Below, piece after piece: positions 1 to 62,200 of a stretch of 64,000 bases of DNA. This stretch comes from Megaleporinus macrocephalus (taxonomy: Eukaryota; Chordata; Actinopteri; Characiformes; Anostomidae), in contig CM038726.1 of the NCBI GenBank assembly GCA_021613375.1, forward strand, positions 15,544,341 through 15,608,340, in the 5' to 3' direction. The notes under the pieces are model-generated. The model saw only the letters and a program-made list of their open reading frames with translations. It searched no databases and was not told the origin of the DNA. The position numbers and the translations under genes were made by a program. Position 1 is the first letter of the stretch. Each line of letters begins with the position of its first letter.

Positions 1-897
1 AGTGGGATATTTTTATGTGTATTCTTTTTGCAACTATGCGGTTATGTACATTTGTGTGGTTTTCTAAATTGTTCCTGTTTAGAACCTTTATATTTAAATG
101 TACGGTAGGTGTAGCAGCAAGACTAAGATGCAGTGAATTACCTAAACTTCAACTGAAACAGTACAGCAAAAAAGAGTCCAGAGGAATAGAGCCATGTTTG
201 CATGAATACTAATTGTTTGCAGATTTTTTTAGTAAAGAAAATAAGGCTGTATCTGAACCTGAAAAGCTGGAACCAACCTTCATATGTACCTGGTTCTAAA
301 CCTACACTTATATGTTTAGCTCAGTTGTTCTAGCTCTAAAAATTGCTTTATCTTCTCACTCTCTTTGCTAACTTGGGGAAACAAGAGGGTAGGTGAAAAA
401 AGTGAACTAAGATGACTTGCTGAATGCTTAATAAACCACAGCTGTAGTAACCCTCCCCACTGTCCCTGAGTTGTCCCCTGTAGAAGACCCATAGTCACAT
501 CTTTTAACTGTGCTCTTGAAATGTTTCCAGCCATCAAGGTCTTATTCATGTTTCCTCTAGTCCAGTGCACACTTTTAGATTTACTGCTTATACCTAGGCT
601 TGTTATGATGCCACAGTTAGTCATGATGTATGCTCTGATGGTTCCCTCGTTGTTGATTAATTCATTAAAAATAAGTGATTAAAATACATATTGCCATCTA
701 TTTATTCGAATTACGATTGTGATTTTTAAAATGGTGTAATCGAGCGTTTACATTTTTACATACAGATATTTTATTATATATTTAGCTTTATTATATAATT
801 AATTTAATTTAAAATATTCAAAAACACTGCTTATTTCTGAAGTGATAGGAAAGCAGAAATCAGCCTTGGTTACCGGCGCTTCTCAAAGCAGGCCAAA

Positions 898-1301
898 ATG
901 GATGCAGCTAACACTCCGCCCAGGACTGGGCTCGTACCAAAAAAAGGTGGAAATGTCACCTCAGTGGTTTGGAATTGGTACGGTTTTGAGAAATCAGATG
1001 TTGAACAAAACCATGTAATGTGTAGACAGTGTGTTGAAAGTCTGTTGCCACCAAAAATAGCAGCACAACACATTTGTTCCAGCACTTATGACACTAACAC
1101 CCTGTGGAACGGGAGCAGTGCCTAAAACAACAGCATGAAACAGCTGGATGCTCTTTAACTCTCAAGGCTCCCACTGAAAGACAGCTAACGTTAGCTGCTT
1201 CATTTTCCAGCACAGCTTCTAATGACAAAAGTAGTGTCCGTTGGAGAGCAATAACGGAGGCAGTGGCTTTTCATATCGCAAAAGACATGATCCCTCAATA
1301 A
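898..1301 (+). pseudogene. hAT/ZBED transposase N-terminal remnant
   Basis: The first reading (898 onward) has a BED-finger-like region: SVVWNWYGFEKSDVEQ followed by a CRQC pair. After about 1090 the homologous reading moves to another frame, with EQCLKQQH and ITEAVAFHIAKDMIPQ, typical of the segment after the BED finger in hAT transposases. The protein ends in a stop at about 1299, so the catalytic part is missing. It is a frameshifted, truncated relic in the hexb upstream intron, not a host gene. Confidence 0.65.
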
Positions 1302-1737: not shown

Positions 1738-4700
1738 GGAGCCTTTCACCCCTACACACATGTGTACACCCCTGCTGATGTGAAGATGGTCATTGAGTTT
1801 GCTCGCATGAGGGGCATTCGGGTCGTCGCTGAGTTTGACACTCCTGGACACACCCTCTCGTGGGGAAAAGGTCAGTGTAGTAACTTGGAGTGTTCGTGTA
1901 TAATGGTATTTTAGTGCAAGCTGTCATGTGTTTAAGTAAAAATTCAATAAGATACTTTGCTTAGCAATACTAGAGTGAGTAACAATGAATGACTATGTAG
2001 AACAAAATTGCAGTACAGTGTCACATCCATTGTGAATCTACGAATTTTTTATATAATTTTTTTTTTTTACATTTTTATAATATTAGGCTATGTCTCTTAG
2101 GGCTGGCCACTATAAAGATATCTGTCTATCATTGTGATAAATCACATCACAATATGCTTTTCCAAGGATAGTGGGGATTTCATTTCTTACTTTTCAAGCG
2201 CATCTTTGATTCAGAAGATTATCCTGTTTTATTGTGTTTACTTCAGTGCAGAATGTGACATGCTGAATACAAAATGTACAAGTAAATATAGCATGTGGCA
2301 TGTGTTCAGCTTGTCAAATCAAAACAAATATCATGACCTGTTGTGTATCAAAAAGCTTTTTCAATCTTACTACCTTTTTACTGTATCACCCAGCTCTGTT
2401 TCATCACCAGCATTTCATCAAAGCACAGAATAAATTTAGAGGCCTTTGCTGTTAATAGTTTAGCGTGCTTGCATTTTACCAACTCTTATTCAAAGCTGCA
2501 TTTAATAAGTTTTACTGTAAATTGTGAAATGTACTGTGAAATGCTACCTGGGCTTTACCTACAATATTCATTCATAGGGGTGTAAAAAAAATATAGAAAT
2601 ATTGAATATCAAGATATTATGTTTTGTGATATGATACTGTATAGATTCTCAAAAACACAGTATCAATACACAGATTCCTGGCAGAAAGTAAATCAGTGTG
2701 TGTTGTGTTTAAACCTCTGACCACTAGATGGCTGAGTTGTCCATTTTCAGCTCCACTCCAACATTAACACTTTGTACTGCTTGTTATTGTAAGCATTCAC
2801 AAACCTGTTCGTATAGTGGTGTGTTTTAATGGTAGGATAAAAAAAAGCAGTATATCACTTTGCTTGTAGTATCGCAGTATATCGCGATATATTGGATTGT
2901 TACCGCTGTAACACGATACGTTTTGTATTACCAGGTTCTTGCCAATACACAGCCCTATTCATTCAATTAAGAATAAACATTTTTGTAACCCTTTAAAAGG
3001 CTTTGCACCACCACTACAATGCTATATGTCAGTTTCATCCATTAGTTAACAGAAATCCTGCCTCTTTGAATGACTTCAGCAAACCATCTCTCTTTGTTTA
3101 GGTCAGACGAATCTTCTGACTCCATGCTTCTCTGGTAGCAAACCATCAGGAACTTTCGGCCCAGTGAACCCCATCCTAAACACCACCTACGACTTCATGA
3201 CCAGCTTTTTTAAAGAGGTCAGCATGGTGTTCCCTGATGCCTACATCCATCTGGGTGGAGATGAGGTGGACTTCTCCTGCTGGTGAGAGAGAGGATTCTG
3301 AAGAACAAATGCCATCTTTGCTGATTTACTCTGAAACAGCAAGAGTACTCACATACTCACGTAGCTGAGAAAAAACTGTGTCTTGCTTAGTTCTGAAAGT
3401 ACAGAGTTTGCAACTCTTGTTTTGCCTAAAATAGTTCATCATGTTTAGGAAGTCAAACCCTGACATTCAGAAGTTCATGGAGCAACAAGGCTTTGGCCAG
3501 GACTACAGAAAACTTGAATCCTACTATATCCAACGGTAAGAAATCCCATTTGTATTGTATTAAGCCAAAAGTCAAGCTGAAAAGCCTACAAAAGGTTATA
3601 GCTAATGTATGACTTGTATAACTAATGTGTAACTACAGGCTCCTTGACATCGTGAGTGCCACCAATAAAGGCTACATGGTGTGGCAGGAGGTCTTTGATA
3701 ATGGAGTTAAGGTAAGAGTTGGTTCTTTCTAGACAGACTGGCTTGCATTGAGATACCAGATCTCAAACAAGAAGTTGAAATCCCCAGCTAGGACCTTAAT
3801 GTCTAACATTTGTTAACAGTCATGGAATATAATGTTGCGTACAGTCTTGAGCCTTTTGACTGAGGATGGTCATGAATGCACAGAAAATTTAAAAAGTTTG
3901 TGATATTTTTCCATTAAGGAAATGTTTTGCAGACCAGTTTAGAATCAATCTAACAAATATATGTTTTGTTGCTTTACATTATGGTTGTTATTCTGTATTA
4001 TCCTACATATTTATTTGATATAAGGAAAAGTAATTAAATACATGAGCGTAATATTGCTTCACTTTTTTGTTTTATGTTGTATCCAATGACCATTTTCACA
4101 AAATGATATTCAGACTGTACCCAGCATCTCTGTAAATTTTTTTTTTTTCTTTCCCTTCTGTTTGTTTAACACTGAATGACTGTCAATACTTTCAAGTGGT
4201 GTCCTGGTTTGATATTTTATTGTTATGTGTAGATAAGTAAGTAAACCATAAAACATTAAGGGTAAAGGTTCACCTTACTGATTTATCTAAATTAAACTTC
4301 CTTAAGACTTTCCTTATTATGCCAACTTAGGAAGTAATGATAATCGATTGTCATCCACTGCATGCTGCTTTGCTAACCTTTCACAATGCAGCCTCTGTAT
4401 GCGGTGATCTGCGCTTGTGCAAACAAATGGGCCTTTTTGTCAGACAACTTTGAGTTGTGTGCTTGCAGCTGAAGGGTGACACAGTCGTGGAAGTGTGGAT
4501 GAACAACAATGTGGACGCGGAGCTTCAGAACGTCACAGGGTCTGGTTTCACCACCATTCTCTCCGCCCCCTGGTACCTGGACTACATTAGCTATGGACAG
4601 GACTGGAAGAAGTACTACACAGTCGAGCCGCTCAGTTTTCAGGGTTGGTCTGCTCAGTTGGTCTGCTCATCTACATTTATTTATGTGTTGGTTTGCAGTA

Positions 4701-7700
4701 GTACTGGATAATATTTAGGGCTGATTTTTATATCCAAGTAGCAATAGGGTGCAACTTCAACTTCAAACCACAAGACCTGCAGTGTTTTTAACTAATAGCC
4801 AACATTATCAACTATGTTGTCTAAACAAATTAAGTGATATTTAACTGAATAACATTGCACTTTGTGAATCACCTGTAAACTGACTGAAAACAACAAATGT
4901 GCAAGCAGAGGAACTGGCAACATTTAAGCCTTGGGGGTGGATATAGTAGAAGTACTCTCCTGAAAACGCCTGGACCTCAATTTACAGAAAATGTTCTCAA
5001 TTTAAACTGCAGAAAAAAATATTTTTATATATTGTGTCGTTAAGCCCCACTAGTATTACAAATGTACTCTTGCATCAAAACTGATTTATTCAGATATTTA
5101 ACACTTAGTCACAGTTACTGCCACAATAACAAAAAGCTTGATTGAATTTGATATTATTTCTCCCTTGTTGGAGAGAAAATAATTTCCTTGTGCCCCCAGT
5201 TTTTGCCATCAACATAAAACAAATCTCAAAATTGCAAATAAAAAGCCTGTTATGTAATTTTATGACCGATATTTCCAGTGAATTTCAATCCACAAGAAAA
5301 ATATATCAAAATGTGTCATAAATCAATGATAGTTCATTTATACACCATTTTTACAACCCACGCTTGTGGAGTTCATTTGGTTTGAAACCTCAATTACAGT
5401 ATGCTGACTTATTAAACTTGCTGTGTACTGTCACTGTGATTTAGAAATTGTATCATTATTTGAGCACAGCAGCACATTTTATATTTAATAATGATTGGAC
5501 CAGAAGTGTTCCAAAATTACAAAAATCAATGGTTTTGCCTTCTACTTTTAAAGTTACCATTTCATGACCGGGAGAATAAAACATGTAAATACATCATTGC
5601 ATTTGATAGTATGTAAAATAAAATAATGATTTAGTAAGCAACTTAAAGTAGTAGTAGTAGTTGTTGTTGTGCCCTCACTACATGTTATACCAGAACTAGC
5701 TTAGGTTTTTAGTTTTTAGCTACATGCTGATGTGTCTCTAATTGCTTTAGTACAACTTGGACATTGCTTTGTTAGGCTTTGTTTTCACCAGAAGCTTTTG
5801 TGCAATATGACGTTCAGGCTATGCTTCGCTCCCAGACTTCCATTTAAAGAAACACTCAGGAGAAGCTGACAGTTTGGTTTTGGATTAGTTGTTCAGGTTC
5901 AGTTGTTGAAGACTTATTTTAGAGGTAAAGTTTGAAGTTAAATTTAATACGACGCAGTTCTCTGATGCAGTAAATGTATTGTACCCTTAAGATATGCTTA
6001 TCTTGGCCTCTTGGTTTGTTTGGCATGGCATAGGTTAGGTTAAGTTTGTCATCAGAGTTTGGTGTTTGGCTTTTTGGTTATGTTTTCTATGTTGAAACCT
6101 GTCATAGAAAATAAGCACCAAACAGCACTTCGTCAGTGACTCGCTTACTTTAGTCGCTGTGAAAGTGCTGATGTATATGTATTACTCACTCCTCATTCCT
6201 GCTTCATTCCTGCGTCCACCTTGCCTCATCCTTTAGTAATCTTTGGAAGGCGTTTTGTAAAGAGGACCTTGCGCAGTGATTTTGTTTAGCAGTAACGAGT
6301 TTACTTTAACACATCACAAACACCTATTATATGCAGCAGAAACATCATTAACATGCTTTTTGATGGTGGGATTGCATTTCGATTTGACTGAATGAAAAGC
6401 CAGGCTTATCTGCTATCTGCTTACTGACTAAAGATCAATGTTGGATGTCATTTGGAGGGCAAATCGCTAAAACTGAACCTGTGATTAGTCTTATTGCGGT
6501 CACTGCATAGGCTCTTTCTGTTGCTGTTTTGCATGCATGCAGTTACAAACATCACAAAACACTTTCTTATATTAAGTGCTTAGTGATGTTTGTCAGCACA
6601 TATGAGCTACAGTTGACAACCAGAAGTGGGTGGTAATCAGTGCCATGTACTCAAGTATATTTGTGAGGATAGTAATCATTTTTTCTACAGTTGCAGTTGC
6701 TTTCTTTTTCAACTCAAGTTCTTTCCATTATTTCACTAAATGACAACACTCTTACTTGAGTATAGGTTTAGGTCGCCCTGCCCACTTCTGTTGACAGCAC
6801 TCCTGCCACTCACACTTTCTGCATGTGGTCTGCAAGTCACTGCTTGGCAGTAAGGCACAGTGGGCTTCTGTCTTTACTGAGCAGCTTCAAAATCATAACT
6901 GGAGTGGCACTTAAGGCACATTCACACTGGGTTTTATTCCAAGAAAACAGAAAAAACAGAAATATTCTAAGAAAATTGTCATTAAAATAATTGAAGCACA
7001 ACAAAGCCTACTTTCACAGTTCTTTTAGGTGATGGGAAATAAATACCGGTCAGGGTTTTAACTTCTATCTACAGGTGGCAATGACAGGACAGCATGAATT
7101 AAACATTTAGTGTGTGAATGTGCCTTTTGTATCTGATTAACAGTAGTTTGGTGAACTAGTATTTATTATAGCCCCCCTAAGGCGCTTTCACACCTACCCT
7201 GTTTGGGTTCTCCAGCTCAATGTTTTCTTTAGATCACTCTTGTACTGACATGGCTGAGCACTCCATTTATATCAAACAACTCAACGGCAGTCCACCTAAA
7301 ATCATTGGCCTCGTTCTTCTTTCAGGCAGCCGTGATACAGTTTGCTGCTTCTGGGATCTGATGCTCCACTTTGAAGGAGAGTTTAACATCACAGCATCAC
7401 ACCATTTTTAACCTGCTTATTAGCACTGTGACAGACTCTCATTGTTCTTGTAGCATCACACATATTTAGATTTTGTCACAACAGCTTCAGAAAGCTATTT
7501 AATCGGTTGGGCTAGACGTCAGTGACCTAATGACCTGGATCTACTGTAGTGAAAACGAAAGTAAGAAAATAGATAGGAGACAAACAAAAGTAAAATAACG
7601 GAGTGCTCATATCCCTGACAAATTTCTGACCAGTCAAAGGAAACCCTTATGCATCTTTTGGTGGACTTTGGAGCTGCTGTAGTGCAAAACCATGCAAACC

Positions 7701-10700
7701 AAATGCTGAAAGATCATAAACAATCGAACGCAAATGAACTAGGTGTGAAAACAGCCTAAGATGAAAAGGAACAGGCAGTGTTCCTTTTCCGCCCGTTTGT
7801 CACATCTGTTATCCCAACATACGTATTTGTAAATGTGCGTGTGTGATTGTATGTGTGTCTGTGCGTAGCTGAAAGCAGACACGCTGCTCCACGTGTGGAA
7901 GGAGAAGCCACAGTACCAGGATGAAATGGCACGGATAACAGCAGCTGGGTTCCAAACCCTCCTCTCTTCTCCCTGGTACCTAAACCGCATCAGCTATGGC
8001 CAAGACTGGCAGGGCGTTTACCAGGCTGACCCTCAGAACTTCAATGGTGTGTTGGGGGCGTCAGGGATACAACTGAAATTAGTTAGTTCACAGATTGTGT
8101 TGTAAAGTTAGGTTCAGACTGTATAGTACAGGGGTGGGCAATATGACCCCATGTGACAGCACCAGCTTTTAGACCAGTGTAAACAACAACAATACTTAGT
8201 GGCCTGGCTTATGATGCAGGATTTGTTAGAAAGCCTGCTAACTTACTTTAGCTTAATATAACTCAAGATTGTTTCGCAACAATCATTCCTTTTTTGCCAG
8301 GCTATTGTATTGCACCATGTTCTGGGGTCATAAACAGCTTCCAAACCAATGGGGGTTAGGTTTGTGGCTGATCAGAAATAGTTCCCCCATTTTTGGGTTT
8401 TTTTTATGTTTGTGTTGTTTTTTATGGTGGTGGTGGTGTGTGTACTGTTAGAAATGGTTTCATGTGTACGTGTAGTATGTTTTTATTTTTCCCGCTTTTG
8501 GTAATAAGCTGCTCGAATCCTACTCTCAAGTGATTGGCTGTTAATCATAAACATCACACTTTCTTGTGTACAAGAGTAAATCGGTTAATCAAGGGTTACA
8601 TAAATTTCCTGCGGTTGCGTTTATTGAATTTCGTGAGTGTAAAACTTGAACGTGGTAGACCCCAGCAAACTGTTCAGTACTGTTCGGCTTATCATGCTTT
8701 AGTCTTGTTTGAACTTTTCATAATTTTTATTAATGTGCTAAGTATATGGGTTTGGTGTACTTTTTGATTATGTTTTTAATTGTGGCACTTTCATTTTGGC
8801 AGTTCCTTGTACACAAACTTCAGGGAAGTTGTGTAATGTGTATTGTGAAAATGTTGCAATAGATTTTTGTCGTATTACCCACCCTAAGACAACATACATT
8901 TATACAGCAGTACACGTCGTGATACTTTTTAGGCTAATTTTGGTCAAAATGAATCTGCTTTTTATCTTGTCAAGCACAACAGAGCTTACTTTCACAGGTT
9001 TTTTAAGTGATGGGAAATAACAATTTTATATGAACGCATTGATGCACCAAAACACAGCAACTCACCTCATCTTTAGACTGGACAGTGGAGTCACAGCAAA
9101 AGATAAAAATTGTGATTTTGACTTTTCCTCGTTTCAGGACTGTGAATATTGTTGACTGTGACTCTGTGATGATGCTGTGAATATTGTAGTTGGTGGCTTT
9201 GTGAATGTTATTTGTGGCGATTAACTAAAACATGGAATTTAGGTTAAATTGTTTGGTTATTGTAGTAAAACTCTCTAAACATTTATTTGTATCTGTGTGA
9301 AAAACTTTTTTGTTATTAGAAAAAAAAAATATTGTCATTGTTAGCATATCAGTTTACGCCAAAATCTGACTGTGTGTTCTACACAACTCTTTATCTCTCC
9401 TCCAGATTTTGAACCCTAAAGTAATGTTCAGTAATGTTAAACTGGCCTGTATATACTTGGTCACAGTTGTGGTTTGTCAGACTGTAGGCTTTGATTGTGT
9501 TGAAGCCTGTTGAAGATAGCAGTGTAGTTTTTTTTTTTACTCAAGTGATTCATATAGTATAGTGTTTTTGTAGTGAAGCTTATGTTGCTTATAAACCCTG
9601 CCAGCTTTTTCCATCATTTATTTTGTTCTTGGCCTTTTAGGCACAGCAGAGCAGAAGAAGCTTGTGATCGGTGGAGAGGCTTGTCTTTGGGGGGAGTATG
9701 TGGACGCCACCAACCTCACCCCCCGTCTATGGTATGACCACCCCATTCCACCCTTTTAGACGATGTTTTATCTGAAGTTTGCTTCTTTAGATTTACTTTG
9801 AAGCTAGACTGTAGAACCTCCATGTTCCATATAAATGATTATGGAAAAAGTAAAGTTACATAAGTTTTATAATTACTGCTTGGTTACATTAACATCATAG
9901 CCCTGTCAATAAACTAAAGAAGCAAACTCTTCATTTTCCTTTGATGTATCACATTTTTAATAGTTAAGGGGATTAGGACACAAACAAACATATCAAGTGA
10001 CACAAATAATGTGTCAGATATGGTGTTTTTAGGAGCTGTAAATGCAGAAATCAGATCTGTTGAGTCATTTTCATATGCAAATACATATCTGATTTGTGGC
10101 CATGTGACCTCCACGACCATCTAAAAATTAATTTGTTTTACACATTTACAACTTTTGAAACACCACCTTTTTAAAAAAAAGATGTGTGGATTTATATACT
10201 GTTTATTATCTCAGGGTACTTCCAAATCATTTTTTTGAATTGAATTTTGTAACTTCTGATTAGGCTGGGGCTTTGGGTCTACATAAGTTTCCTCTAGTTT
10301 CGTGTTCAGGGAACTGTACTTACTGACACTCTGGCTTTCTTTGCAGTTTCTTTAAAGGAAAGACCTACACTTTTTTTTAGGGCTGTAATTTATGTTGCTT
10401 TTCTATGTTGATTACTTTTTTATTATTATGATGGCACTATTCATCCTGTAGTGCAATATTATCCAAATACTGGGGGATGGAGTCTGTTCCAATACTGCTT
10501 TTATAAAGACATAGGGTTTTGACCAACAAAAGTTGGGATGCCTGGATGAATTGATTGCATCAAGCTTAATTTCACATCCACTGTGGCAGATCAGACTGAT
10601 GACTTGTTCCCTGAAAAACAGCCCACCCAACTCTGAAATGTTTGTTGTACAGTTTAGCTGTTGCCACTTAACTTTGTACCATTTCGAGTGATTTAATAGT

Positions 10701-11422
10701 AATAAAAACTGAATTATTATTATTATTATTTTTTTTAAGTGCATTACCATCATCCAGTGTCTCTTACCGGTCAAATCAGATCTGAGCAAAAATGCTATTT
10801 GAGCAGTAATCTGATTACCATTGTTTTGACTCCCCTCGAATCCTCTTTTAAAAAGTTGACACTATGCCTCAGAATGCAAAGTAACTTCCCTCCTAGACAG
10901 CTCTGTGCTGAGTGAGCAACAGTGAAAGAGTGTGGTGTGCTTGTTTCTCACAGGCCTCGAGCCAGTGCAGTAGCTGAGAGGCTGTGGAGTGATGAAAGCG
11001 TGAAAGACATCGGCAACGCCTACGATCGCCTGGTCAGACACCGCTGTCGCATGGTCAAGTAAGTTCGAAACCTCCAAGTGACTTTGTCTTAATGACCTGA
11101 AGGGTATTAAATTTCAATGCATTGATTTAATGCTGCACAAACAGTTAGCAAGGCAAGTCTGTTCACATGGTTCATTTTTTTGGTTTGTGGTTGTTTTTCT
11201 TGACACTGCTGGACAAAGCATGACCTTTTATTGGTCACAGTAGGGCCGTGTAGCTGAGTCAGGCCCAGTTCAGTTCCTTTAAAGTTGTTTGTCTGCTGTA
11301 TGATTTCCTGTTACTGCTGTCCTAACTGATCATTTTTCATGTTCTTTTTTTTTTTTAGGAGAGGTATAGCTGCAGAGCCCCTTTATATAGGATTTTGTCC
11401 GTATGAGTACGGGAGCCTGTGA
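1738..11422 (+). CDS. hexb: hexb, beta-hexosaminidase subunit beta (3' part, nine exons)
   Basis: Lysosomal glycoside hydrolase family 20 enzyme that removes terminal beta-linked GlcNAc/GalNAc from glycans and, as an alpha/beta dimer, from GM2 ganglioside. Exons with GT-AG borders and matching phases: 1738-1870, 3102-3282, 3449-3535, 3639-3711, 4469-4643 (copy a), 7869-8046 (copy b), 9641-9731, 10954-11058, 11359-11422 (TGA 11420-11422). They cover roughly human exon 7 to the end. Visible landmarks: [14 protein letters not shown], the catalytic [30 protein letters not shown] and the C-terminal [17 protein letters not shown]. Signal peptide and N-terminal exons lie left of the window. I chose hexb over hexa from the beta-like sequence of most exons (for example [16 protein letters not shown]) and from the adjacent gfm2, as in human. 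The odd feature is the duplicated exon a/b, which must be used alternatively. Gene identity is strong; the isoform structure is inferred. Confidence 0.95.
2575..2957. mobile_element. hAT-type MITE with 8-bp target duplication
   Basis: 383-bp noncoding element bounded by inverted ends TAGGGGTGT / ACAGCCCTA and flanked by perfect ttcattca duplications (2567-2574 and 2958-2965). The 8-bp duplication is a hallmark of hAT insertions. Lies in a hexb intron. Confidence 0.75.
3102..3282 (+). CDS. hexb: hexb exon with the catalytic Asp-Glu pair
   Basis: Enters in phase 1 (completing the codon split at 1870) and leaves after two bases of the Trp codon finished at 3449. It encodes the loop after the [11 protein letters not shown] strand and ends with [12 protein letters not shown]. 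In GH20 enzymes the Asp-Glu of this motif positions the substrate acetamido group and acts as the general acid. Both residues are present, so the gene looks catalytically competent. Confidence 0.93.
4469..4643 (+). CDS. hexb: hexb duplicated exon, copy a (beta-type pocket, Asp)
   Basis: Acceptor ttgcag at 4463-4468; 58 codons plus one base; donor gttggt at 4644, a weak match to consensus. It encodes VEVW (the Trp lining the active site) and then [13 protein letters not shown]. The Asp after PWYL is the residue of the human beta subunit (Asp452), known to disfavour negatively charged substrates. Phase is 0 in and 1 out, identical to copy b. A direct repeat (ttggtctgctca, twice) begins immediately at the donor and could hold splice-regulatory sites. 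An open, conserved exon. Confidence 0.93.
6913..7126. mobile_element. short MITE between hexb exons a and b
   Basis: About 214 bp bounded by a 15-bp perfect inverted repeat (aaggcacattcacac / gtgtgaatgtgcctt). A related internal segment (gcacaacaaagc...gatgggaaataa) recurs at about 8968-9020 as a fragment. Noncoding. Confidence 0.6.
7178..7759. mobile_element. MITE-like element upstream of hexb exon b
   Basis: Bounded by imperfect inverted ends containing tttcacaccta / taggtgtgaaa, about 580 bp. It ends 109 bases before exon b and so contributes the sequence just upstream of that alternative exon. No coding content was recognised. Confidence 0.55.
7869..8046 (+). CDS. hexb: hexb duplicated exon, copy b (alpha-type pocket, Asn-Arg)
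   Basis: Acceptor gcgtag at 7863-7868; 59 codons plus one base; donor gtgtgt at 8047. It encodes LHVW and then [13 protein letters not shown]. The Asn-Arg pair is that of the human alpha subunit (Asn423/Arg424), which binds sulfated and sialylated substrates. By my alignment about 27 of 58 positions match copy a; conserved ones include the active-site Trp and Tyr, while the loop before the Thr-x-x-Gly-Phe helix differs. Phase is 0 in and 1 out. There is no stop in frame. The acceptor lies behind a UG-rich tract rather than a pyrimidine tract. I infer a mutually exclusive partner of copy a. A decaying pseudo-exon is unlikely given the open frame and both splice sites. Confidence 0.85.
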
Positions 11423-59200: not shown

Positions 59201-62200
59201 TTTGATCCATGCTCACTGTTGTTAATTTTGAGGGATTTAGCGGATCCTCTTCCTTACAATTTCAGTAAGGCAGTTACTGGATTATTACTAATGGGTCTTG
59301 TTAGTCTGTATGTCTACTGCCAACTGTCTACTGTCTACTACTTTCTTACTCCTTGTTTTGGTTGAGCATATTTCTTCACTCTTGGGTTTCTAGTGAGATG
59401 TTTACTCTGAAACTTTAATAAAGATACAGTTATACAGCACCTTGGGCAAAGCAAAGGAGGGCCAATAAAGGACGAGATAATAAACACAAAAAAACATAAT
59501 CCAAGAAAGGCTTCTAAAAGTACCTAAGTGACTGAGCAGATCAGCCAGAGTGTGGGTGAAAGCCTCCAGCTGGCTCTTTGCTGTTTCCATGTTGTCCATC
59601 ACAGAGTCTAACGAAACATCAGCCTGTAAAGCAGAGATGGGAGAGCATCGTTAATATGTTAAAAAAAACTCAAACCAAAGTTTGTTTTCTAATTTTCAGC
59701 CAATTTAAAACAAGGATATTTATATTTCCATGCATGTTTCAGGAGCACACACAATAACAGGTCATTCAAGATGAAGCCAGTGGTTCCCAGCCACCATACA
59801 GGGGACCTCATGCTCTGTACATATTTGTATCTGCTCTGTACATATTTGTATCTGCTCTGCACAATCTAAGAAGTGTCCTACAGGGGTTGGACAATGAAAC
59901 TGAAACCTGGTTTTAGACCACAATAATTTATTAGTATGGTGTAGGGCCTCCTTTTGCGGCCAATACAGCGTCAGTTCGTCTTGGGAATGACCTATACAAG
60001 TCCTGCACAGTGGTCAGAGGGATTTTAAGCCATTTTTCTTGCAGGACAGTGGTCAGGTCACTACGTGATGCTGGTGGAGGAAAACGTTTCCTGACTCGCT
60101 CCTCCAGAACACCCCAAAGTGGCTCAATAATATTTAGATCTGGTGACTGTGCAGGCCATGGGAGATGTTCAACTTCACTTTCATGTTCATCAAACCAATC
60201 TTTCACCAGTCTTGCTGTGTGTATTGGTGCATTGTCATCCTGATACACGGCACCACCTTCAGAATACCATTTTTGAACCATTGGATGCACATGGTCCTCC
60301 AGAATGGTTCGGTAGTCCTTGGCAGTGACACGCCCATCTAGCACAAGTATTGGGCCAAGGGAATGCCATGATATGATAGCCCAAACCATTACTGACCCAC
60401 CCCCGTGCCTCACTCTGGGCATGCAACAGTCTGGGTGGTACGCTTCTTTGGGGCTTCTCCACACCGTAACTCTCCCGGATGTGGGGAAAACAGTAAAGGT
60501 GGACTCATCAGAGAACAATACATGTTTCACATTGTCCACAGCCCAAGATTTGCGCTCCTTGCACCATTGAAACCGACGTTTGGCATTGGCACGAGTGACC
60601 AGAGGTTTGGCTATAGCAGCCCGGCCGTGTATATTGACTCTGTGGAGCTCCCGACAGACAGTTCTGGTGGAAACAGAGGTACACATTTAATTCTGCCGTA
60701 ATTAGGGCAGCCGTGGTTTTATGTTTTTTGGATACAATCCGGGTTAGCACCCCAACATCCTTTTCAGACAGCTTCCTCTTGCGTCCACAGTTAATCCTGT
60801 TGGATGTGGTTCTTCCTTCTTGGTGGTTTGCTGACATTACCCTGGATACCGTGGCTCTTGATACATCAGAAAGACTTGCTTTCTTGGTCACAGATGCGCC
60901 AGCAAGACGTGCACCAACAATTTGTCCTCTTTTGAACTCTGGTATGTCACCCATAATGTTGTGTTATTGCAATATTTTGAGTGTGTCTTACCTGCTAATT
61001 GAACCTTCACACCATGCTCTTACTGGTGCAATGTGCCATTAATGAAGATTGGCCACCAGACTGGTCTAATTTAGCCATGAAACCACTCACACTAAAAAGA
61101 CAGGTGTTTCAATTTCATTGTCCAACCCCTGTAGCTGTACTGTTTATATGTATTTAATCTATATAACTAATCATTACATTATTAGATTTTTGGCACTGAA
61201 AGTAGATTTTTGTGTGTGTGTGAGGGGGGATCTATTTATTTTATACTGGAGCCCATTAAGATCGTAGTTACATCACTGAGTGCATCCACTCCACTAGGAC
61301 TCTAATGAAAAAAACATAATTATGGGTAATACAGAAGGCCTATATATTCACTCTTATTATTATTTGTGTTGAACATTTTTGGGGATATATTTAAGAAGTC
61401 GAGAACATTTTTATACAGCATTACTCAAACATTAATCTCTCCAGTAAGCTGAAACATTATGACTTCAAAATACACAAAATTCACACGTCCCATCAACTCT
61501 GCAGCACCTCTCCGTTCACTATTTGTCAATAAGTCGCCAAAATATGCATACACCACCTCCAGAGTGTGCAGGAATGTGTCACCTTCATGCATATAGATAT
61601 TTACATAGACACTGTAGTTGCTTAGCATTATTTGTTATGTTAGCACCCTTCATACATATGGCCTATAAAATCTAAATAACTATATCAATCATTAAAAAAC
61701 CTGAGTTCCAAATATTTCACTAATATTATTAGGTAAGGAAATGGACCTTTGGGCTTCAGACAAGAACCATTAAGTAAATGTTCTGCAAGTAGATGTAAGT
61801 GTTCTTGGCCACTTCTACCCACTTAAGTATCCATTCTAGGACCTGGTACATGTAATTTGGCACAATATAATGCTAGTAAGGAAGTATGTCAGATGATGGA
61901 CATACAGACTGCTTACCTCAACCATCTGCATGTCTGCCTGCACCTGAGCTGCTGCACTTTCCTGCTCAGTCAGCTGTTGCACGGCTGTGTTCACGGCTGA
62001 GTTCAGCTGCGCAGATGCCCTCTTCGCCTGCTTTCCCCGTGACACAGATGCTTTGGCATTCTGCCAAGCAAACAGCATGGGGATTAGCATGTTGCCGTCT
62101 ACTAATCTTTCCTAAAACCCAGTTCAGCAGCGTACAGTAAAGCAGCAACTGTTTGACAACATATGACCACAACTGTGTTTATGGTCAAGTGCCGAATCAA

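Follow-up and report, generated by a model that had tools for sequence, protein, structure and literature searches.

The stretch of DNA analysed here (hereafter, the window) comprises 64,000 nt of the 1.28-Gb genome of the fish Megaleporinus macrocephalus (GenBank assembly GCA_021613375.1, contig CM038726.1, positions 15,544,341 to 15,608,340). It contains the 3' part of the hexosaminidase gene hexb, which spans positions 1738–11422 of the window as judged by reading frame and homology. The gene starts upstream of the window, at about 15.54 Mb of the same contig (C25), where its first exons are located, and its coding span in this genome is about 16 kb. Among the database matches listed, the protein closest to window hexb was that of Prochilodus, followed by that of Metynnis; both are characiform fishes. 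Our subject is a pair of neighbouring, homologous hexb exons, termed A and B. The hexb exons of the window, listed below, were placed by frame and homology, and exons A and B also by residue typing.

1738–1870, + strand: coding exon, the first hexb exon within the window
3102–3282, + strand: coding exon containing the conserved GGDEV as well as the loop GSKPSGT, aligned to GSEPSGT of HEXA
3449–3535, + strand: coding exon
3639–3711, + strand: coding exon directly 5' of the alternative pair
4469–4643, + strand: alternative exon A, beta-type, 175 nt
7869–8046, + strand: alternative exon B, alpha-type, 178 nt
9641–9731, + strand: coding exon 3' of the pair
10954–11058, + strand: coding exon
11359–11422, + strand: terminal coding exon, including the stop codon

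Exons A and B are both open, measure 3n + 1 nt, have phase 0 at entry and phase 1 at exit, and possess AG/GT borders (exon A, acceptor ..gcttgcag and donor gttggt; exon B, acceptor ..gtgcgtag and donor gtgtgt). A preliminary description of the window had reported two open exons with these coordinates, phases and borders, all of which were confirmed. Their products shared 28 identities in 60 alignment columns with the split codon counted, in agreement with the earlier figure of about 27 of 58 residues. The alignment score was 159, against a maximum of 18 among 2000 shuffles. With A alone or B alone joined to the neighbouring exons, the frame remained open through to the stop codon; inclusion of both exons, or of neither, resulted in a frameshift and early stops. 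When 35 kb surrounding the gene were tested with tblastn, each remaining hexb exon had a single match, so the pair belongs to one gene and not two. Outside the swapped exon, hexb rows separated from those of the paralogue hexa and amniote HEXA with a Shimodaira–Hasegawa-like approximate likelihood ratio test (SH-aLRT) support of 100 (46 database rows, quick method). The window protein is absent from this tree and was assigned to hexb by the identity of its flanks to hexb proteins.

No candidate for an RNA pairing that would enforce exclusivity was found in 3712–9640, where the 20 inverted-repeat pairs detected are all short or imperfect (16–29 nt, 71–94% complementarity). The acceptor region of exon B (7800–7868, + strand) is TG-repeat-rich. 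TG-rich motifs are of the type bound by CELF splicing regulators, and the region is a possible site for regulators of this type.

Active-site residues encoded by exons A and B

Exon A plus the next exon had their best PDB matches in human HEXB chains. For exon B plus the next exon, the best match was 5bro, a chain named HEXB but carrying NR within the segment that reads PWYLDLISYG in the other HEXB chains shown. Exon A of the window encodes Asp-Tyr at the position of human HEXB D452-L453. Exon B encodes Asn-Arg, matching N423-R424 of human HEXA (alpha chain 2gjx; the numbering was counted along the printed 2gjx alignment, taking the chain to begin at residue 23). In the human PDB chains, HEXA and HEXB carry complementary versions of the block.

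According to the part of PMC3587417 that was available, the difference between alpha N423-R424 and beta D452-L453 is the primary cause of the efficient hydrolysis of anionic substrates by the alpha site: R424 pairs with the sulfate of 4-methylumbelliferyl-N-acetylglucosamine-6-sulfate (MUGS) or the sialic acid of ganglioside GM2, and D452 repels both. Human hybrids bearing such changes hydrolysed MUGS (same source). The accessible text of PMC8162980 likewise states that 6-sulfate binding is allowed by alpha Arg424 and hindered by beta Asp452. As read from the encoded residues, the A/B swap is an exchange of precisely the known alpha/beta specificity pair.

Relative to the human proteins, the fish gene groups by its flanks with HEXB (beta subunit, Sandhoff disease), and exon A is of the human HEXB type. 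The human HEXB chains seen are of the A type only, except 5bro, whereas the fish gene additionally encodes a HEXA-type block. Exon B shares the Asn-Arg of human HEXA (alpha subunit, Tay–Sachs disease) but sits in hexb, and fish hexa differs from human HEXA in also having an A-type copy and in encoding Asn-His in its B exon.

An engineered human protein, modHEXB, combines DL452-453NR with RQNKLDS312-318GSEPSGT, nine residues in all (PMC13198282, accessible part). The window loop GSKPSGT matches 6/7 residues of the GM2-activator-binding loop GSEPSGT, so the predicted fish isoform B, with its NR, has 8/9 of the substituted residues. The two differ in that modHEXB is a laboratory-made human protein. 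The loop was readable in 75 of the 76 exon-B hexb database models, and 26/75 had eight or nine of the nine modHEXB residues. In human hybrids, GM2 was hydrolysed with the human activator by heterodimers with alpha only, and by none of the homodimers (PMC3587417, available part), which by analogy would weigh against a simple GM2-cleaving isoform-B homodimer. Homodimers of modHexB reduced GM2 in mice, as far as the accessible text from the PMC13198282 group reports. A structure model of zebrafish isoform B had a mean predicted local distance difference test (pLDDT) score of 81, with low values in loop 432–441.

The distribution of both versions was assessed via protein searches with three queries, namely the two hexb exons, each on its own, and a hexa query that included the A-type exon. 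The exon B query yielded 80 proteins. Four of these were amniote HEXA (P0069, P0078–P0080) and the other 76 were hexb; the hexb records came from teleosts, bichir and frogs, except one that had no species name. The exon A query yielded 227 proteins, the best 120 of which were hexb of fishes, birds, echidna and alligator. The hexa query yielded 1102 proteins, the best 120 of which were 119 hexa, as judged by flanks, and one hexb (P0007). No invertebrate or shark outgroups were obtained from the searches with these three queries.

All 310 retrieved proteins were typed at alpha 423-424/beta 452-453; they represent 90% clusters, in places several per species, so the counts are not independent. Exon A segments of hexb had Asp in 123/123 cases (117 Asp-Tyr, five Asp-Trp, one Asp-Leu), including a frog copy (P0011) that was initially scored as B and counted as A by position. 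Exon B segments of hexb had Asn in 76/76 cases (75 Asn-Arg; Asn-Val in bichir). For hexa, Asp was found in 77/78 A segments (47 Asp-Gln, 26 Asp-Leu, four Asp-Lys; Asn-Leu in sturgeon) and Asn in 45/45 B segments (44 Asn-His; Asn-Val in sturgeon). Amniote HEXA had Asn-Arg in 4/4 cases. The zebrafish record P0131 bears the name 'Hexa protein' but was typed as hexb carrying an A exon; its label therefore looks wrong, and zebrafish 'hexa' work may be affected.

Identity to the window in zebrafish was 78% for exon A, 77% for exon B, and 84% and 80% for the flanks. Across teleost hexb (four species for each exon), it was 76–80% for A and 70–77% for B; in the B comparisons, from which quail HEXA was excluded, the flanks had 74–85%. 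In the set tried, exon A was about as conserved as the flanks.

The paralogue hexa and the age of the pair

The same genome contains hexa on the minus strand of contig C1, with an exon pair of its own, placed by homology and phases.

C1:47169568–47169742, − strand: hexa A-type exon, 175 nt
C1:47168021–47168201, − strand: hexa B-type exon, 181 nt

In this pair (G000 C1:47168021–47169742, corresponding to L007:4022–5743, − strand), A again precedes B, the borders are AG/GT and the phases are those of hexb. Inclusion of both exons or of neither shifts the hexa frame as well. The quick-method tree of 46 rows, built outside the swapped exon, also placed fish hexa together with amniote HEXA and apart from hexb (SH-aLRT 100). 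Both types were present in teleost HEXA models among the matches listed. The idea that teleosts are without HEXA and use exon B as a substitute was rejected, since hexa was found in this genome and in many teleosts.

In the models listed, the A exon of hexa mostly reads PWYLDQPGPTHNW or PFYLDLPGPTHNW, and the SYGQDW part is thus absent; sturgeon hexa A retains GYGQDW. Since its A exon is conserved and yet without SYGQDW in the teleost models, hexa-A is possibly a subunit of a non-standard or non-catalytic kind.

The matching A/B pair in this fish's hexa makes it likely that the pair predates the HEXA/HEXB split. One old duplication is favoured because the two genes share the same exon, order, phases, exon A length (175 nt in both) and D/N polarity. 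Under a mixture model, the exon tree separated the A rows of both genes from the B rows of both genes plus amniote HEXA with a support of 99/99 (53 rows), although this fell to 33/91 when a long-branched frog A row was retained (54 rows). The alternative is that hexb and hexa each acquired their own pair once the gene had duplicated, with convergent order, phases and D/N pattern. The exon trees are compatible with such separate duplications, and this counts against a single origin. An arrangement holding all hexa rows together was not rejected by the approximately unbiased (AU) test under the mixture model (p-AU 0.30; 0.125 for fish hexa only). Under LG+G4, the by-gene arrangement outscored A|B by 1.1 log units; the A|B, by-gene and crossed arrangements (p-AU 0.53, 0.59 and 0.27, respectively) were all within the 95% set. 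Given the mixture-model split and the shared exon architecture, we regard two separate origins as unlikely.

If a single duplication preceded the gene pair, amniote HEXA likely retained the B version and amniote HEXB the A version. A more tentative extension, to which we give somewhat less than even odds, is that the single hexosaminidase gene before the duplication was already spliced between sites for neutral and anionic substrates, and that the Tay–Sachs and Sandhoff genes later divided its splice forms. Fish and frogs would then have kept the switch, hexb alone giving a HexA-like enzyme by pairing of A and B forms, with isoform B as a natural counterpart of modHEXB.

Probable splicing of the pair and its interpretation

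Zebrafish hexb has two database isoforms, and all 29 differences between them fall inside the exon block. We examined six pairs of protein records from the same species, and A and B versions were present in 6/6. The differences were confined to the block in five of these pairs (hexb of zebrafish, Labeo, Conger and Triplophysa; hexa of Stegastes); the stickleback hexa pair had additional differences from column 359 onward. Among the names that sources give to the A and B records are 'isoform X1', 'X2' and 'isoform 1 precursor'. Seven proteins had 'lgn' as their sole source and lay on contigs of 1.7–4.4 kb, which are too short for the intron-bearing gene and therefore probably represent transcripts. 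Of the seven, four are hexb A and one is hexb B; the other two are hexa B, and hexa A is not represented. Taken together, the isoform records, the single-version transcript-sized contigs, the frame logic and the conservation of both versions make hexb A and B look like mutually exclusive exons.

One published study names hexb among differentially spliced genes. In the reef fish Acanthochromis, hexb was one of 21 genes whose splicing differed between the February and March of a heatwave, and Table 1 of the study lists 14 exon-skipping, five mutually exclusive and two alternative-3'-site genes for this period (PMC8933327, available part). A literature search on alternative exons or splicing of hexosaminidases, which covered few subscription papers and no supplementary files, returned no title or abstract describing the pair. 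The pair resembles the human set of tandem-duplicated mutually exclusive exons (PMC9741552) in having homologous neighbours of equal phase, an isoform difference of one block, and an ancient and conserved character. That set comprises 236 events, and a word search of the main text available did not find 'hex'. The fish swap differs from the human set in exchanging residues that distinguish two disease-linked paralogues, the human proteins carrying one version each.

Most of the preliminary description held up against these data. Its old duplication with both copies kept open fits the conservation of both versions across teleosts, and of B as far as bichir and frogs; the mutually exclusive use it proposed gained support from the four lines of evidence above; and its single version each in human HEXA and HEXB agrees with the complementary PDB chains. 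The two exons were correctly read as alternatives of an active-site segment, but the residues separating HEXB from HEXA and the exon pair of hexa itself had been missed. The claim that such a gene is undescribed stands for the literature searched, and must be limited in that databases already list both isoforms and the available text of PMC8933327 names hexb as differentially spliced.

We propose, with a probability of roughly 0.78, that exons A and B stem from a tandem duplication and are spliced in a mutually exclusive way, which switches fish (and amphibian) hexb between beta-type and alpha-type sites. Each mature hexb mRNA would take either A or B, the choice being regulated, and mRNA with both or neither would be out of frame and presumably degraded. 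Exon A (Asp plus Tyr, Trp or Leu) would give a HEXB-type site repelling anionic substrates, and exon B (Asn-Arg) a HEXA-type site able to pair with 6-sulfate or sialic acid. Since A would provide a beta-type and B an alpha-type site, one gene could supply both subunit types, and an A–B heterodimer from hexb alone would be the closest fish match to human HexA. The data directly show the anatomy, homology and conservation of the exons, the residue identities and the isoform records of other fishes; that this species splices the pair in this way, that mis-spliced mRNA is lost and that the substrate range changes is what we infer.

Several observations weigh against the proposed switch. Both versions occurred within one database model in 16 cases (12 hexb, four hexa); many of the printed two-version models read through intron-like residues or have a shortened exon A, and we read them as probable prediction artefacts. 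The splice type of Acanthochromis hexb is not stated in the available text of PMC8933327. In hexb B of bichir and hexa B of sturgeon, Asn-Val is without a basic residue; hexa A has Asn-Leu in sturgeon and Asp-Lys in four cases. In the comparisons made, hexb B and hexa B were somewhat less conserved than their own flanks. Finally, an AlphaFold2 model of one hexa-A isoform (Siniperca) was poor from about residue 380 (mean pLDDT 68), so hexa-A is perhaps something other than an ordinary enzyme.

Other explanations of the pair can be weighed on the same evidence. The range of anionic substrates might change little between A and B: about half of the exon residues differ, beyond the two specificity residues, the exon also covers the part around beta Ile454 and Tyr456, named as dimer contacts in the accessible text of PMC2492878, and bichir hexb B is without the Arg. 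We consider this improbable, because only one of the typed segments of hexa and hexb breaks the D/N contrast, and because the difference in specificity is ascribed mainly to the residues that the human proteins carry at these positions (PMC3587417; for the sulfate part, PMC8162980; both as available). Much less probable still is that the protein is made from one of the exons alone, the other being a relic, or seldom used, and open by chance. The acceptor tracts of both exons are less pyrimidine-rich than that of the next exon (60% versus 80%), but the teleost identities given above, the reach of B to bichir and frogs, and the presence of both versions among the hexb transcript-sized contigs speak against a relic. 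Derivation of exon B from a second tandem hexosaminidase gene is hardly credible, and was rejected on the single matches of the other hexb exons in the tested 35 kb; like an assembly error, it is contradicted by isoform pairs of other species, which imply the same arrangement.

The difference between HEXA and HEXB, which lies behind two lysosomal diseases, is a textbook example of how paralogues specialise. If one gene makes both site types by splicing, this specialisation could predate the gene pair, and turnover of gangliosides and sulfated glycans is predicted to be under splicing control. Knock-outs in exon 1 of zebrafish hexb would then remove both types together, which would fit the >99% loss of Hexa plus Hexb activity reported for such knock-outs in the available part of PMC6772114. 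Fish isoform B would also offer a natural template for comparison with single-gene GM2 enzymes.

Other features of the window

Ten among the 40 longest listed frames were scanned against Pfam, and a transposase alone scored above the cut-off.

59934–60963, − strand: Tc1/mariner-type transposase, with Pfam DDE_3 and HTH_Tnp_Tc3_2 in 59934–60686

An apparent BED/hAT-like transposase fragment, judged by eye, lies in a hexb intron at 880–1100 (+ strand).

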